Below are positions 19,916-25,263 of a stretch of DNA of 27,209 bases, in pieces; position 1 is the first letter of the stretch, and each line of letters begins with the position of its first letter. Below the pieces are notes generated by a model. It saw nothing but the letters and a program-made list of their open reading frames with translations, had not been told where the DNA came from and searched no databases. The translations under genes were made by a program, and so were the position numbers. The stretch is from a virus. Where the stretch lies: IMG/VR virus record IMGVR_UViG_3300022602_000341, positions 1 to 27,209 of that record, one strand, 5' to 3'.

Positions 19916-20403
19916 CTTGCTCCAAATGGGTTAACAATCCGCGATTTGTCTTTTGATACAAGAGCGGGCTGATGCGCGCTTTGAACAAACACCTTCAATC
20001 CCTTTGCCGTCATTTTGATTGTTCCTCTGTACCAATTAGGTATGGGAATCGGAACAGGGTTTGCGGCAGGCAGTATTGAGAACTTTCTGACGTTGCCGTT
20101 TTTGTCGCGTTTGTCGATCCTGGGAATCACACCGCCAGACAAAACAAATTTCATGCGAGCGGTCAGCCAAATGCGGGTGCTGTATCGCAACCACAAATCT
20201 CTTTTTCGCATTTGTTTTTTGTAGTCGCCCCAACTTTCTTTTCTGACATTGAGCGCCGACAACAACATAGACGGCGCACCTTTGTACGGACTCTCAGGAT
20301 TTTCTGTTAGCCAGAAATACACGTAACACAAATGCTCGTCGTTCCAAGCAAGATCTGTGTCGTACCCTATTTCGGTTTTTCTATCTTTGGACACGGGTTC
20401 CAC
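19912..20403 (-). CDS. Hypothetical protein between terminase and portal (163 aa)
   Basis: Not recognised. A basic, aromatic-rich protein (AWNDEHLCYVYFWLTENPESPYKGAP, WGDYKKQMRKRDLWLRYSTRIWLT) with a Pro-rich stretch (LPAANPVPIPIPNWYRG) before the C-terminal 'MTAKGLKVFVQSAHQ'. The start is GTG with GAGGA about 7 bases upstream, overlapping the terminase end by 23 bases. Such tight linkage suggests a packaging or head-assembly accessory, with no further evidence. Confidence 0.65.
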   Translation of the reverse strand: MEPVSKDRKTEIGYDTDLAWNDEHLCYVYFWLTENPESPYKGAPSMLLSALNVRKESWGDYKKQMRKRDLWLRYSTRIWLTARMKFVLSGGVIPRIDKRDKNGNVRKFSILPAANPVPIPIPNWYRGTIKMTAKGLKVFVQSAHQPALVSKDKSRIVNPFGAR

Positions 20404-22228
20404 GCGCTGTCCTCACGTTTGTTTTGAGAGCGTCTGTTTGATTGACGAGAAAGCCAATGTCTTTAAGGTAACTGCGAACGACCGCAGGCCCTCGCACTTC
20501 AACGCCTGTTTTATTAGCGTTTTCCTGTTGTTCTCTGTCCGACCTGCGCGTGAGGCCAACAGACATCAAGCGCGTACGCACCTGATCGTTCCACGCAAGA
20601 ATGGCAAGCGCTGCTGCAACCACGCGGTCATCGCGAGCGTTGCTTGATGCCGATGGCGCAGAGCCTGATTCGCGCACAATGGTTTTCATCTCATCAAGCA
20701 AGTCTTTGCTCGACACCAGCGCCATGCCGCGCTCAATGTAGTCGCGCATATTGTTCATCATGCGCTCTTTCATCTGAAACGTGGTCTGCGTATGCAACGC
20801 GCCTGCGCCGCCGTACATACTGTCGTACTTGCGGTACATGAACTCTCGCATATTCTTTAACACGTCTCGCAAAATTGGCTTTGAATCTGGAGAGCCGAAC
20901 ACTTTTTCTTTTTTCATGTTCTGCAACTCGTTCAACACCGCTTGGCCTGGGCCGTTGATTTCGAGGTTGTATGTACACGGCGCATAAGCGCCTGCGAGAT
21001 ATGCAATCACCCAGGCGAACTGCGCGGTCGTTAGTGTGTTGTCCGCAAACTCTGCGACTTGCTCACAGCCGTCCGACCAAACGCGCCAAACAGAGCAACA
21101 AAACGAGTCGGCTTCGTCCGACGATCCGTATGCAGGATCTGCCCCCAATACATAAAAAGCGTGTTTCTGAGGGTTCTGCCAAACCTTTAGCGTGCAGTTT
21201 TTGCTGTTCGCTTGATGCACTTCCGTGTTGAGAAAGTGATTGCCAAACCGGAGCCGATACATCTCGGGCCGCTCAAGGCGCGCAACTTCTTGATACAGAT
21301 TCGACATCGCTGATGCGTTGAAGAACTGAGACCCGGACGCTTGGAACGCCTGCGTCTCCGTCCACGGAAACTCTTGAAGCCGGATGCTTTCGTCCTGCTG
21401 CTGCTCAGCAGACAGCCATCGCCACCATGCGATTTGTTCGTCATCAATCTCAATGCCGTACAGCGCTTTGACTTCTTTTGCCCACTCACGTTCTTGCGTC
21501 GTGAGCCTGCCGTTTTTGCCGTAATACGAGTTGTAGACCTCTGTGCCGCGCGCGAATCTGTAAAACTCGTTCGCCCACCAACTCACAAAGATTGTTTGTT
21601 GAGAGACCGCGACCTGGGCTTCTTTCCATTGGTCGTAAAACATATTGAAGCCGCGAGCCGTTGATTCCCAATGGTAGAACCGATTGGGATTCTTCTGCGC
21701 CAACGACGCACGGAGCGAGGCAAAGCCTTCAGGGTCGCCCCACGATGACATCTCTGTCGCGTGAAGGAACGACGGCGCGGACGAACGTCCCAGCGAGCCG
21801 CCGCCCGATTTCTTTGTACCCGCCACTCGGTACAGCAACTTTGTACCTGTACTGAGGACTAATTGATTGCGGTTGTGATCCTTGATCGGACGTTTCCACT
21901 CGTCCGGGAGACCCGCGTAATACAACTCTAGGGTCGACCGGAACTGGTCGCGAGCCGTGTCCTCATGGACTGCCAGCATACCCGTCATGCCCTTGTGACG
22001 CTGCAACCAGAACAGGTCGAGCGCCAACGAAAGGGTACTGATACCCGCCTGTCGGCACTTGAGAGTCACAAACTCCCGCTTGCCGTCCTCAAACCCTTGC
22101 ACGATGTTTCGCAACAAATACCGCTGCGTACCCATCATGCTTTGACCCAATCGCACCATGCCCTTCTCTTTCGTGTCGATGAGAAGCGCGTTGGCGAACT
22201 GCATAAAATGCGTAAGCGGAAATGTCAT
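20381..22228 (-). CDS. terL: Terminase large subunit (ATPase plus RNase H-like nuclease)
   Basis: A 615-aa packaging motor. ATPase: the Walker A-like CRQAGIST at about 58-65 (classic terminase form, RQ.G.ST), the Walker B end SFLHATE with Glu at about 159, and a coupling motif HWESTA at 187-191. Nuclease: GADPAYG with Asp at about 364, LEINGPG with Glu at about 423, and NARDDR with Asp 533/534, the expected acidic triad of the RNase H-like fold. The frame extends to 22351, but the ATG at 22228 is chosen since GGAAG lies about 6 bases upstream and the longer form overlaps the previous gene by 62 bases. No small-terminase gene is recognised beside it. Confidence 0.92.
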   Translation of the reverse strand: MTFPLTHFMQFANALLIDTKEKGMVRLGQSMMGTQRYLLRNIVQGFEDGKREFVTLKCRQAGISTLSLALDLFWLQRHKGMTGMLAVHEDTARDQFRSTLELYYAGLPDEWKRPIKDHNRNQLVLSTGTKLLYRVAGTKKSGGGSLGRSSAPSFLHATEMSSWGDPEGFASLRASLAQKNPNRFYHWESTARGFNMFYDQWKEAQVAVSQQTIFVSWWANEFYRFARGTEVYNSYYGKNGRLTTQEREWAKEVKALYGIEIDDEQIAWWRWLSAEQQQDESIRLQEFPWTETQAFQASGSQFFNASAMSNLYQEVARLERPEMYRLRFGNHFLNTEVHQANSKNCTLKVWQNPQKHAFYVLGADPAYGSSDEADSFCCSVWRVWSDGCEQVAEFADNTLTTAQFAWVIAYLAGAYAPCTYNLEINGPGQAVLNELQNMKKEKVFGSPDSKPILRDVLKNMREFMYRKYDSMYGGAGALHTQTTFQMKERMMNNMRDYIERGMALVSSKDLLDEMKTIVRESGSAPSASSNARDDRVVAAALAILAWNDQVRTRLMSVGLTRRSDREQQENANKTGVEVRGPAVVRSYLKDIGFLVNQTDALKTNVRTARGTRVQR

Positions 22229-22289
22229 CGTTTCTTCCAACAAACGCACCACCGCCCCAGACACCCCCCAGGGCGGCGGCACGCTCGCA

Positions 22290-22430
22290 TTACTTGGACT
22301 TCCGAGCCTGCTCAGCAAACTGAGCCGCGTTCCACTCGTTACGCGACTCACCCTGGCCCTTGCCCATCGACTTCTTCGGCATCTTCGGCGTCGACTTCTT
22401 CTTTGCCGCTTTCTTCTTGGTCGTAGCCAT
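22290..22430 (-). CDS. Lys-rich small protein (46 aa)
   Basis: The frame extends to 22472, but the ATG at 22430 is used because AAGGGGAAG is 4-5 bases upstream, one base after the previous stop. The first half is a polybasic tract (ATTKKKAAKKKSTPKMPKKS), and the C-terminal half looks helical (SRNEWNAAQFAEQARKSK). The composition suggests nucleic-acid binding. It sits between the Tad2-like gene and the terminase; a small DNA-binding partner of packaging is possible but not shown. Confidence 0.6.
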   Translation of the reverse strand: MATTKKKAAKKKSTPKMPKKSMGKGQGESRNEWNAAQFAEQARKSK

Positions 22431-22431
22431 C

Positions 22432-22710
22432 TTACTTCCCCTTAGTGGTAGTAGTGGTCGGAGTCGGGTCAACCGGGGCCGGATCAGGCGTTACCGTCGG
22501 CGCTGGGGTCTGTGCAACCGCATCACCCGGCTGCCAATCCGTCGCCAACAGGTCGGGATTGGTCGGGACCCAAGTGGTCACGCCCGTTGATGCCGTTAAC
22601 AAAATGTTGGTGCTGTCGTTCGGGTCTGCCGAGATAGCACCATCTGTCCACGATTGCCGATTCGTTGAGTGTCCCCCGCGAAGCAGGGACAAAGCCGTTT
22701 CAAATAGCAT
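22432..22710 (-). CDS. DUF2829/Tad2-like protein, candidate anti-Thoeris
   Basis: A 92-aa protein whose first 62 residues follow the DUF2829 (Tad2) pattern: 'FETALSLLRGG' helix, an R..W strand (RQSW, W21), a middle strand, then 'WVPTNPDLLATDWQPGD' (W47, PDLLATDW 52-59). DUF2829 includes Tad2, which sequesters the glycocyclic ADPR signal of Thoeris. The binding pocket cannot be verified from here: the usual 'GW' after the first strand is SW. Residues about 68-92 are a Pro/Thr-rich tail, absent from the compact family members I recall. An ideal AGGAGG site is 6 bases before the ATG, which overlaps the upstream gene. Confidence 0.7.
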   Translation of the reverse strand: MLFETALSLLRGGHSTNRQSWTDGAISADPNDSTNILLTASTGVTTWVPTNPDLLATDWQPGDAVAQTPAPTVTPDPAPVDPTPTTTTTKGK

Positions 22711-22903
22711 TTTCAGCCTCCTGCGCCCTCTGGCGCTCTTTCATTGCCTTACGATTCCCGCCGCGGCGTCCCGCCTCACGGGCCAATTTAACGTCCTTAC
22801 TATACGCGCGAGACTCCGGTGGGACAGCCCGACCGCCCATCGACTGCACCTCGCGTCGACGCTCCGGCGTCATCGCCGCCAATCCACGCTTAGCCTTTTC
22901 CAT
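22700..22903 (-). CDS. KGG/Con-10-type small stress-protein-like gene (67 aa)
   Basis: The sequence shows the KGG pattern: RGLAAMTPERRREVQSMGGRA followed by a shifted second copy ending REAGRRGG. This is the signature of the YciG/Con-10-type 'general stress protein' family. The rest is very basic and helical (NRKAMKERQRAQEAENAI). Such proteins are common in phage genomes but their role there is not known. GAGGACGAGAG precedes the ATG. It overlaps the upstream coiled-coil gene by 14 bases and the Tad2-like gene by 11. Confidence 0.7.
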   Translation of the reverse strand: MEKAKRGLAAMTPERRREVQSMGGRAVPPESRAYSKDVKLAREAGRRGGNRKAMKERQRAQEAENAI

Positions 22904-23174
22904 CTCTCGTCCTCATGTGATTCACTATGACCTGCTCCAGGTCAGTCACCTTGTCCTGCTCGGCCTTCAGGGTCTTGAGCAGCCGATCCCGCTCCAAGCG
23001 GAACCGCTCAATGTCCCGGTTAGCCACCGCCAACGCCTCGCGCAACCGCATCAGATCCCCCATCGCCCGGATCTCCTGCCGCAACTCCTCTACCCACACA
23101 GGCGGCGGCAGCGACGGACGCTCCAAGTCCTGCATCTGACCTTGGGTCGAGCCTAAGCGGCTACGGGTAAACAT
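22890..23174 (-). CDS. Small coiled-coil protein (94 aa)
   Basis: After a Pro-rich N-terminus (RPSLPPPVWVEEL, about 19-31), residues 30-88 form one long charged helix with heptad spacing (LRQEIRAMGDLMRLREALAVANRDIERFRLERDRLLKTLKAEQDKVTDLEQVIV). The family is not recognised. GGAG lies about 7 bases before the ATG, inside the preceding mini membrane-protein gene. Its position right after two mini membrane proteins may mean a membrane-linked complex, but this is only a suggestion. Confidence 0.65.
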   Translation of the reverse strand: MFTRSRLGSTQGQMQDLERPSLPPPVWVEELRQEIRAMGDLMRLREALAVANRDIERFRLERDRLLKTLKAEQDKVTDLEQVIVNHMRTRDGKG

Positions 23175-23265
23175 GAAGGATCTCCATGATCGCCATCAGG
23201 CAAATCAGTATCAGCGCCGCGTACATACACAACACCGCTTTCTCAAAGTCATCAGGGTTTTTCAT
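23161..23265 (-). CDS. Mini membrane protein (34 aa)
   Basis: A 34-codon frame: charged start (MKNPDDFEKA), then one hydrophobic helix (VLCMYAALILICLMAIMEIL), then HVYP. It overlaps the preceding 39-aa gene by 14 bases and ends inside the next gene start. The single-helix topology, tight packing and consistent strand argue for a real gene. The function is unknown; small phage membrane proteins include lysis and superinfection factors. Confidence 0.5.
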   Translation of the reverse strand: MKNPDDFEKAVLCMYAALILICLMAIMEILHVYP

Positions 23266-23395: not shown

Positions 23396-23548
23396 TCAAG
23401 CATACCCATCCTCCTTTCTCCGTGCGCGTCGAATCGTCCTGATTGAACACCCAAACCGCCTCGCGAACGCCTTCATGTACCCGTACGTCCGCTCCGCACC
23501 CCGGATCTCCGCAACCTGATCAGCGTTCAACCGCTTACTCTGCGCCAT
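23396..23548 (-). CDS. Small helix-turn-helix protein (50 aa)
   Basis: The frame is open to 23692, but the ATG at 23548 is chosen: GGGG stands about 5 bases upstream. The protein is almost only a DNA-binding trihelical unit: 'LNADQVAEIRGAERTYGYMKAFARRFGCSIRTIRRARRKE' has a helix, a turn and a recognition helix with the 'A..FG.S..TI.R..R' pattern of the resolvase/transposase-type HTH. It may be a small regulator. A TerS-type DNA-binding role is possible but it is short for that. It overlaps the preceding small gene by 14 bases. Confidence 0.65.
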   Translation of the reverse strand: MAQSKRLNADQVAEIRGAERTYGYMKAFARRFGCSIRTIRRARRKEDGYA

Positions 23549-23780
23549 TGGAACCCCGCGCACGGATGGCTGCGGCGCACGCCTCATACGCCTTGTTGTA
23601 GTTACGTTGAGTCTTGTCAACGGGAGCGTAATCCACCATTTCTTCACACACCCTCGCACAAGCCTCTTGCTCCTCGGCCCTTGCCCGCGCATCGACTTTC
23701 GCCATCAGCGCGTGAAGCGCGTCGTAGAACGTTTGATGCAACTCGGCAAACGCATATCTGACTGCTTCATCGCGGGTCAT
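23535..23780 (-). CDS. EREACA/IRARG small modular protein (81 aa)
   Basis: Member of a local set of related small proteins: N-terminus MTRD, a central EQEACARVCEE motif (about 37-47), and a C-terminal AAAIRARG motif. The family is common in phages of Betaproteobacteria; its role is unknown. The start ATG overlaps the preceding gene as ATGA, with the Shine-Dalgarno site (GGGGTGA) made by the previous gene's last codons. The residues between the two motifs look like a helical hairpin (VDYAPVDKTQRNYNKAYEACAAAI). Confidence 0.65.
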   Translation of the reverse strand: MTRDEAVRYAFAELHQTFYDALHALMAKVDARARAEEQEACARVCEEMVDYAPVDKTQRNYNKAYEACAAAIRARGSNGAE

Positions 23781-24397
23781 GGTTCACCCCGCGCACGGAT
23801 AGCCTCACAACACTCCGTTTCTGTCACCGCACGCAAAAACTCTGCTGTTTGAGCAGACCACGCCGCATCAAACGCCGCACCACGCGCCGCAGACCACGCC
23901 GCATCCCACGCCGCATCACGCGCCGCAGACCACGCCGCATCCCACGCCGCATCACGCGCCGCATCACGCGCCGCAGCCAACGCCGCAGACCACGCCGCAT
24001 CCCACGCCGCACCACGCGCCGCAGACCACGCCGCATCCCACGCCGCAGACCACGCCGCATCAAACGCCGCACCACGCGCCGCATCCAATTCATTTTTTGT
24101 CGCTGCGCCCAAAGCAAAACGCTCTGCGACATTGATTGCGTCATGGCTTCGTTGATCGGTTATCAGATGCTGCACTTGTCTTGCACACCACACTGCAAAC
24201 AACCGCCACTCGCGGTCATGCTCAGGCACCGTGCGACACGCCCACAAAGCGTCTTTCATTCCGTTTGATTCCACAATGACGCTAAACGGCAGCGGCTCGT
24301 CATCGGCTTCTGTTTTGCCAAGATGCTGAAGAAGTTTTTTCCAACCTTCAACACACGGATCATGTTCGCGAATTCGATTCAATGTCGTGCAGATCAT
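23777..24397 (-). CDS. Imm5-like protein with XAAZ tetrapeptide repeats and IRARG end (206 aa)
   Basis: Residues 1-105 match by eye the putative-immunity (Imm5-like) family: LNRIREH..CVEGWKKLLQHLGKTEADDEPLP, then ALWACRTV..HDREWRLFAVWCARQVQHLITDQRS and VAERFALGAATKNELDAA. From about 107 to 183 about 19 tandem tetrapeptides (D/S/R/G)AA(W/R/F) form an Ala/Trp helix. The last 20 residues end in IRARGEP. Such proteins are annotated as 'putative immunity protein', but the function is unproven. The DNA of the repeats is a tandem 12-mer and so may vary in length. ATGA overlaps join both neighbours. Confidence 0.65.
   Translation of the reverse strand: MICTTLNRIREHDPCVEGWKKLLQHLGKTEADDEPLPFSVIVESNGMKDALWACRTVPEHDREWRLFAVWCARQVQHLITDQRSHDAINVAERFALGAATKNELDAARGAAFDAAWSAAWDAAWSAARGAAWDAAWSAALAAARDAARDAAWDAAWSAARDAAWDAAWSAARGAAFDAAWSAQTAEFLRAVTETECCEAIRARGEP
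23853..24093. repeat. Tandem 12-bp coding repeats in the Imm5-like gene
   Basis: A roughly 240-bp tract of imperfect 12-base units, e.g. CACGCCGCATCC and CACGCGCCGCAG on the plus strand. It encodes the (D/S/R/G)AA(W/R/F) tetrapeptides of the minus-strand gene. Units are in frame and similar at the base level, so recombination or slippage could add or remove units without frameshift. Confidence 0.8.
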
Positions 24398-24612
24398 GGT
24401 TTCACCCCCCGCGCACGGATCCGAGCCGCAAATATCTCACCGCCCTTAACCGCTGACTTTTGTTCACACAATCGCGCACACGCCTCGCGCTCGGCGGCGA
24501 CTGAGGCATCCCATGCAATCCGCGTGACGCGCTCGGAGAATTCTTCAAAATCTTCATTTGGAAGCGGCCTAATTCCACTTCCGACTTCGTACCACCATTT
24601 GTCGTGCGTCAT
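24394..24612 (-). CDS. EREACA/IRARG small modular protein (72 aa)
   Basis: Same pattern as its neighbours: start MTHD, then AAEREACARLCEQ (about 39-51), then AARIRARG near the C-terminus. The N-terminal half is Trp- and acidic-rich (KWWYEVGSGIRPLPNEDFEEFSERV). Function unknown. It starts with an ATGA overlap, and GAGGTGA six bases before the ATG is formed by the previous gene's C-terminal RARGE codons. It overlaps the Imm5-like gene by 4 bases. Confidence 0.65.
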   Translation of the reverse strand: MTHDKWWYEVGSGIRPLPNEDFEEFSERVTRIAWDASVAAEREACARLCEQKSAVKGGEIFAARIRARGVKP

Positions 24613-24851
24613 TTCTCACCTCGCGCACGGATGGCCATGGCGTTGCTCATGAGTACTTTGTACATCAGGGAATCCTTAACGCAAGCCTTAGCGTTTTCTT
24701 CTAACACCTTCGCACACGCCTCGCGCTCAACCGCAGCCACCATCTCCACAAACCGCATCAGGGATACCGCCATCGGCGCGGTATCGTAGATCGGAGTGCT
24801 CTGCCACAGCCCAGACGCTACCGCCATGTTGTAGTAGTCATCGCGGGTCAT
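24609..24851 (-). CDS. EREACA/IRARG small modular protein (80 aa)
   Basis: Third member of the set: starts MTRDDYYNMAV, has AVEREACAKVLEE (about 41-53) and ends AMAIRARGEK. The frame is open to a GTG one codon upstream (24854). The ATG is preferred because its first bases, ATGACCCGCGATGA, match the start of the 81-aa relative. Function unknown. It overlaps the stop of a possible 14-aa micro-ORF by one base (TGATG). Confidence 0.65.
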   Translation of the reverse strand: MTRDDYYNMAVASGLWQSTPIYDTAPMAVSLMRFVEMVAAVEREACAKVLEENAKACVKDSLMYKVLMSNAMAIRARGEK

Positions 24852-24895
24852 CACAGCATCTTCCGCGCAGCCAACTGCTCCTTTGTGGTCATCAT
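24851..24895 (-). CDS. Possible 14-aa micro-ORF (MMTTKEQLAARKML)
   Basis: A short frame from the ATG overlapping the HNH stop (AAATGATG) to a TGATG junction with the next gene. AAGGGG precedes it by about 5 bases. It bridges the gap between the two genes, so it may couple their translation. It could be a remnant of another modular gene (its end, AARKML, is not IRARG) or chance. Confidence 0.3.
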   Translation of the reverse strand: MMTTKEQLAARKML

Positions 24896-25263
24896 TTACA
24901 CCCCTTCTTCAAGTTACACCTCGGACACAACAACTGCAGATTCCCCACCACGTTCAACCCACCCCGCGCTATCGGCACGATGTGGTCCACGTGATACCCG
25001 GTCACCGCCAGCGACCGTAAACACTTCCGGCACTTCCCGCCCTGCGCCAACGCCAGGTTCTGCACGTCCCGAGCCGTGAAACTCCCCCGCGTCTTTGTCC
25101 TGCGTTTGTGAGCCGCCGCCGCTCGTTCCGGCTTTTCGCATCCACGACACCTCGGTCTCAGCACGGGCTTGCCACCACGCATCCGAACGCGAAAACGTCC
25201 CCGAGGAAGCATTTTTTTGCATCCACAACACTCCGACAACAAACCTTCGTGACGGCGTTTCAT
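24892..25263 (-). CDS. HNH endonuclease
   Basis: A 123-aa protein. A first zinc ribbon is made by C12/C15 and C39/C42. The HNH domain holds C78-x2-C81, the YHVDHIVPIARGG motif (His 91, Asp 93, His 94), a GNLQLLC segment (Asn 108) and C113-x2-C116-N-L-K-K. Phage HNH proteins encoded upstream of terminases can work with the terminase in DNA packaging; this position, three kilobases upstream, agrees but does not prove it. No Shine-Dalgarno site precedes the ATG; a TGGTATATC -10 ends 6 bases upstream, suggesting a leaderless mRNA. Confidence 0.85.
   Translation of the reverse strand: MKRRHEGLLSECCGCKKMLPRGRFRVRMRGGKPVLRPRCRGCEKPERAAAAHKRRTKTRGSFTARDVQNLALAQGGKCRKCLRSLAVTGYHVDHIVPIARGGLNVVGNLQLLCPRCNLKKGCK

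Follow-up and report, generated by a model that had tools for sequence, protein, structure and literature searches.

The virus record analysed here (27,209 bases, in the following called the window) carries a small Tad2-like gene on its minus strand. The gene lies between two small conserved neighbours, a basic KGG-like gene upstream and a Lys-rich ORF downstream (Table 1). The position of the terminase large subunit places it in the packaging module.

Table 1. Features at the Tad2-like locus of the window and the evidence for each
Feature	Position	Strand	Basis
Terminase large subunit	20381..22351	minus	phrog_2, E 6.6e-15
Downstream Lys-rich small ORF, 46 aa	22290..22430	minus	ORF list; conserved neighbour
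Tad2-like gene	22432..22710	minus	ORF 22710-22432, ATG start, 92 aa; PF11195 match
Pro/Thr-rich tail, residues 61-92	22435..22530	minus	pLDDT block means 61, 64, 55 and 49; DNA-level resemblance to the terminal part of the L004 downstream gene
Approximate exchanged segment (Tad2 body and tail) relative to L004	22443..22672	minus	windowed identity, alignment
Tad2-like domain, residues 1-60	22531..22710	minus	Pfam match, clade alignment, AlphaFold2 pLDDT >90, Z 10-11 to Tad2 structures
Upstream small basic gene, KGG-like	22700..22903	minus	PF10685 at 11.9 bits, below the cut-off of 20.4; conserved neighbour, overlaps the start of the Tad2-like gene
AGGAGG ribosome site	22717..22722 (22722-22717)	minus	sequence; within the 3' end of the upstream gene, six bases 5' of the ATG

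An earlier note on this DNA had described an ideal AGGAGG ribosome site ahead of the gene, by which the protein may be strongly made, and a clean site was found there. It is also kept in the four other relatives that were checked (L004, L008, L010 and L012). Its position inside the end of the upstream gene, together with this conservation, suggests that translation of the Tad2-like gene is coupled to that of the upstream gene. A scan for sigma-70 promoters was uninformative (2 found, 3.0 expected).

Several other small genes occur in this region. Shortly before the terminase, L004 (1869-2051), L010 (2437-2619) and relatives carry a conserved small gene without a Pfam family; its product has an H-x-A-x-L-x-A-R motif and is rich in Pro and Ala at its end. 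Further upstream in the window, four consecutive small ORFs on the minus strand (23535-23780, 23777-24397, 24394-24612 and 24609-24854) appear by eye to have the C-terminal I-R-A-R-G in common. Most of them carry an E-A-C-A stretch before it, as if one domain had been reused repeatedly. The second of these ORFs (206 aa) contains a long repeat of the AAWDAAWSAAR type and has no Pfam match. An HNH endonuclease (PF01844, 47 bits) is encoded at 24892-25263 on the minus strand, about 2 kb from the exchanged region.

Family and predicted fold

The gene product matches PF11195 (Tad2-like, formerly DUF2829) over residues 1-60 with 34.9 bits at a gathering cut-off of 25. NCBIfam and PADLOC returned no family for this protein (P0001). 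The profile match and the predicted fold bear out the assignment to DUF2829/Tad2 in the earlier note, which had relied on a PDLLATDW end, W47 and an N-terminal helix. All three are present, with PDLLATDW at residues 52-59 and the helix at residues 3-11 of the model. In the alignment of its own clade, R18, W21, W47, D53-L-L and D58-W59 are invariant. The closest Tad2 among solved structures is matched only weakly by the single sequence (phmmer E 0.054), because the protein is short and divergent. A profile of the protein and 37 relatives retrieved only Tad2/AcrIIA7 chains from the PDB (E 1e-21 to 5e-24), a signal that comes mostly from the relatives.

The structure was predicted with AlphaFold2 using an alignment (A4) of the window protein and the 37 relatives. 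The pLDDT block means are 92-97 over residues 1-60 and 49-64 over residues 61-92. Besides the first helix, the model consists of strands 16-18, 25-29, 32-40 and 43-46, a helix at 51-55 and a strand at 59-61. VIA-align scores the model against SPO1 Tad2, ModTad2, AcrIIA7/HgmTad2 and SptTad2 with Z 9.8-11.1 over 62-63 residues (rmsd 1.5-1.9), and all 63 ordered residues can be aligned to solved Tad2. The next row reaches only Z 5.5 and Foldseek agrees, with a probability of 1.00 to Tad2 chains, so the predicted fold is that of Tad2. The similarity is comparable for SPO1 Tad2 (gp34.65; PDB 8sme, 8smf, 8smg and 8wje; Z 10.1-11.1, up to 63 of 63 ordered residues), for ModTad2 (PDB 9eib and 8v3e; Z 10.3-11.0), and for AcrIIA7/HgmTad2 and SptTad2 (8kbi, 8kbk, 8kbj and 8wjd; Z 9.8-10.6). 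Family membership and predicted fold can be regarded as established, and it is from the family that we infer the function.

The closest match outside the Tad2 proteins is a neck chain of phage 812 (8qkh_s, Z 5.5, 63 residues). This may reflect only a common structural arrangement. Our guess is that the chain is gp164 of phage 812; gp164 gave no profile match, and the phage 812 record gave no match to PF11195.

Missing segments and the Pro/Thr tail

The window protein is unusually compact. From the conserved W to the final W it spans 38 residues, as do the proteins of L004 and L008, compared with 60 in SPO1 Tad2 and 43-83 in 78 measurable wider homologues, taken from the best 80 of 509 profile matches and therefore biased to typical members. 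About 20 residues are absent, and in a full-length comparator this stretch holds helix alpha2. In this comparator, the L074 protein, residues 47-53 form a helix and extra strands accompany it; the window model has no counterpart there, strands 25-29 and 32-40 being joined by a two-residue turn (30-31). Very short PF11195 proteins of 60-66 aa are also found among predicted viral structures, so compactness alone is not new. A literature search, with most subscription papers outside its range, found no Tad2 that is both compact and tailed.

The motif around the first tryptophan differs as well. The window protein and that of L008 have RQSW (residues 18-21 in the window protein) and L004 has RQEW, whereas R-x-G-W follows the first helix in 79 of 79 wider relatives from the same biased sample (80 fetched, one mis-framed row removed). 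R-x-G-W is the commonest form of the family and not an official criterion of PF11195. The earlier remark that SW in place of GW is atypical is correct in this respect, but the own clade is mixed, with SW, EW or GW, the last in L010 and L012. The NGKGM loop is also replaced. SPO1 Tad2 has the core W...W...D-x-L-A-x-D-W in common with the window protein, but carries GW-NGKNM and no tail. The best relatives in named phages, 76 aa PF11195 proteins of the Gajwadongvirus phages MR4 and PP99 (tblastn E 1e-4 and 6e-4, 32% identity), likewise differ from it in retaining GW-NGKG, in a W-to-W distance of 45 residues and in lacking a tail. ModTad2, solved with His-ADPR according to the entry title, is longer and tailless. 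The AcrIIA7/HgmTad2 and SptTad2 chains are longer too (99-104 residues).

A review (PMC12043709) locates the dimer contact of SPO1 Tad2 at alpha2/beta2. It assigns the gcADPR pocket to loops beta1-beta2, beta3-beta4 and beta4-alpha3, strand beta4 and alpha3, and the cyclic-dinucleotide site to a long insertion between beta2 and beta5. Mapping these element numbers onto the predicted models by our own reading, the window protein would retain counterparts of the gcADPR-pocket loops, and neither alpha2 nor the long beta2-beta5 insertion typical of HgmTad2 and SptTad2 is seen in its model. With SW for GW, a replaced NGKGM loop and about 20 residues including alpha2 missing, the dimer interface and the site for cyclic dinucleotides that the review describes may both be gone.

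The Pro/Thr tail is real and comprises residues 61-92. The earlier note suggested that it might change oligomer or ligand specificity, but it seems less special than that: the tail is absent from the L004 relative (75% identical, 64 aa, five residues after DW), it is predicted to be disordered, and it looks like the remnant of a downstream gene. We also considered the tail as a family feature and rejected this, since 75 of 78 wider homologues have at most 17 residues after DW; these again stem from the best 80 of 509 matches, less the mis-framed L084 and L145, which lacks DW. In L004 and L010/L011 the protein stops 5-6 residues past DW, and a distinct gene follows, about 60 residues long and Pro-rich at its end. 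In L001/L006/L007, which carry the allele of the window, and in L008 and L012, this downstream gene is absent and a tail of 30-33 residues is present. The pairing holds for 3 of 3 untailed and 5 of 5 tailed records, representing only five distinct alleles (L035 was left out owing to a wrong start).

At its end the window tail is similar, in the same frame, to the last part of the L004 downstream gene. In a local DNA comparison the two score 52, a value that 0 of 1000 shuffles attained; once the last 15 bases are trimmed, the score is 34, and 4 of 1000 shuffles attained it. The same comparison gave a signal for the tail of L012 (0 of 300 shuffles) and none for that of L008 (58 of 300). By these shuffles the case for an origin from the downstream gene is good for the window and L012 and unsupported for L008. 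The simplest account, for which the evidence is good but indirect, is that the tail is probably the leftover C-terminus of the neighbouring gene, fused by a deletion.

Selection and allele exchange

Identity to the gene of the window is 99% for L001-L003 and 75% for L004, and it drops to about 60% for L008 and to about 37-43% for L010 and L012. Between window and L004 we counted 23.7 synonymous differences over 43 sites and 20.3 non-synonymous differences over 137 sites. The resulting dN/dS of about 0.17 shows constraint, and on this substitution pattern the gene is under purifying selection. A chance ORF can be dismissed on the basis of this ratio and the PF11195 score.

A PF11195 match above cut-off is found in 9 of 28 related records. 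Sixteen of the 25 terminase-bearing loci extend 600 bases or more beyond the terminase on its upstream side and are informative (the other nine are too short), and half of these phages (8/16) carry the gene. All eight phages without it still have the conserved small gene that in some relatives lies after it. Upstream of the gene, window and L004 agree at 58-60 of 60 positions in each of nine blocks (22701-23240). Agreement falls to 41-48 of 60 per block in the Tad2 body and returns to 60 of 60 at 22340-22281. A body about 70% alike between flanks about 99% alike indicates exchange as a segment, and by this alignment the Tad2-like gene is an exchanged accessory allele. Accessory genes in arms races are often exchanged in this way. 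Amino-acid differences cluster in the presumed pocket loops in just one of three allele pairs.

A separate mosaic junction near 22220-22280 (region 20261-22280) is indicated by L001, whose terminase has only 81% protein identity, compared with 99% for the neighbouring Tad2-like gene. Named phages gave no match at the DNA level, and a terminase-based scan of genome contigs revealed neither a host nor a prophage.

Possible function and alternatives

We consider it about an even chance (0.5) that the protein is a compact small-molecule sponge of the Tad2 family, sequestering a nucleotide-derived immune signal. In favour of this reading are the profile match and predicted fold, the purifying selection, the exchange of the allele between near-identical flanks, the presence in only half of the informative phages and the varied neighbours of the wider homologues. 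The Tad2 domain, once folded, would assemble into an oligomer. The signal would be held in pockets formed by the W21 loop, the W47-V-P-T loop and the D53-L-L helix. An ADP-ribose derivative would be a likelier ligand than a cyclic dinucleotide. Trapping of the signal would leave the host effector inactive, and this would be the counter-defence role. The tail, as a disordered by-product of the deletion that fused the gene with its neighbour's end, would be dispensable for the sponge. The location in the packaging module counts against this reading, since expression may be late, after Thoeris or CBASS signalling. So do the weak single-sequence similarity to solved Tad2, the altered GW and NGKGM motifs, the missing residues and the clustering of differences in the presumed pocket loops in just one allele pair of three.

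A protein of the same fold that has drifted to another intracellular task, acting on a different nucleotide or a host protein and no longer as an immune-signal sponge, seems rather unlikely, though it has some weight. It would explain why GW, NGKGM and the alpha2 segment were lost while selection persists, and one Tad2-fold protein has been deposited under the name AcrIIA7, which designates it as inhibiting a type II CRISPR-Cas system. The residues that remain (W21, W47, D53-L-L and D58-W59) are, however, the conserved core of the family.

The place of the gene, with small conserved genes and the large subunit of the terminase as its neighbours, also permits a role in morphogenesis or the virion, for example as an accessory head or neck decoration protein, instead of counter-defence. 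The fold match to the phage 812 neck protein points the same way, and PF11195-type genes occur near packaging genes elsewhere, as in Curiosium (gp4), phage CBW1004C-Prop1 and L063, where by our reading the gene lies between terminase-like and portal-like ORFs. Its absence from half of the informative phages shows, however, that the gene is not generally needed for assembly, and with no profile match for gp164 and no PF11195 match in the phage 812 record, the likeness to the neck protein is one of fold only, if that chain is gp164. The neighbours in the wider family are mixed as well: the 125 large ORFs nearest to 66 non-redundant homologues give matches to terminase, portal and scaffold, but also to ribonucleotide reductase, RNA polymerase, DNA polymerase and many more, with no single family above 5 of 125. 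The wider homologues have no fixed context, as expected of an accessory gene, and we hold a virion role to be improbable.

A narrower form of the sponge, an anti-Thoeris protein sequestering gcADPR like SPO1 Tad2 with the tail tuning the oligomer, overlaps with the main reading and is to be judged as its special case. SPO1 Tad2 is the top fold match (Z 11.1), and the gcADPR-pocket loops named in PMC12043709 have counterparts in the model. On the other hand, alpha2 is missing, the W loop is altered and the tail is neither conserved nor ordered. ModTad2, the His-ADPR binder, is tied in fold score, so the fold cannot pick the ligand. In this specific form the proposal is as doubtful as the virion role; gcADPR and Thoeris in particular appear less likely than signal sequestering in general.

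More speculatively, and with only a slim chance of being right, a minimal Tad2 of about 60 residues, without the alpha2 interface and the cyclic-dinucleotide site, might assemble differently, near-identical phages might swap its alleles to change the trapped signal, and the neighbour-derived tail might add a function such as partner recruitment.

Apart from its function, the tail offers a clear case of an added stretch in a phage protein that is best explained by deletion of a neighbouring gene. Should signal trapping persist in the compact clade, its members would rank with the smallest working Tad2 proteins and would reveal what parts of the fold build the pocket. Should the clade trap no signal, this would warn against annotating a protein as anti-Thoeris from a PF11195 match alone.
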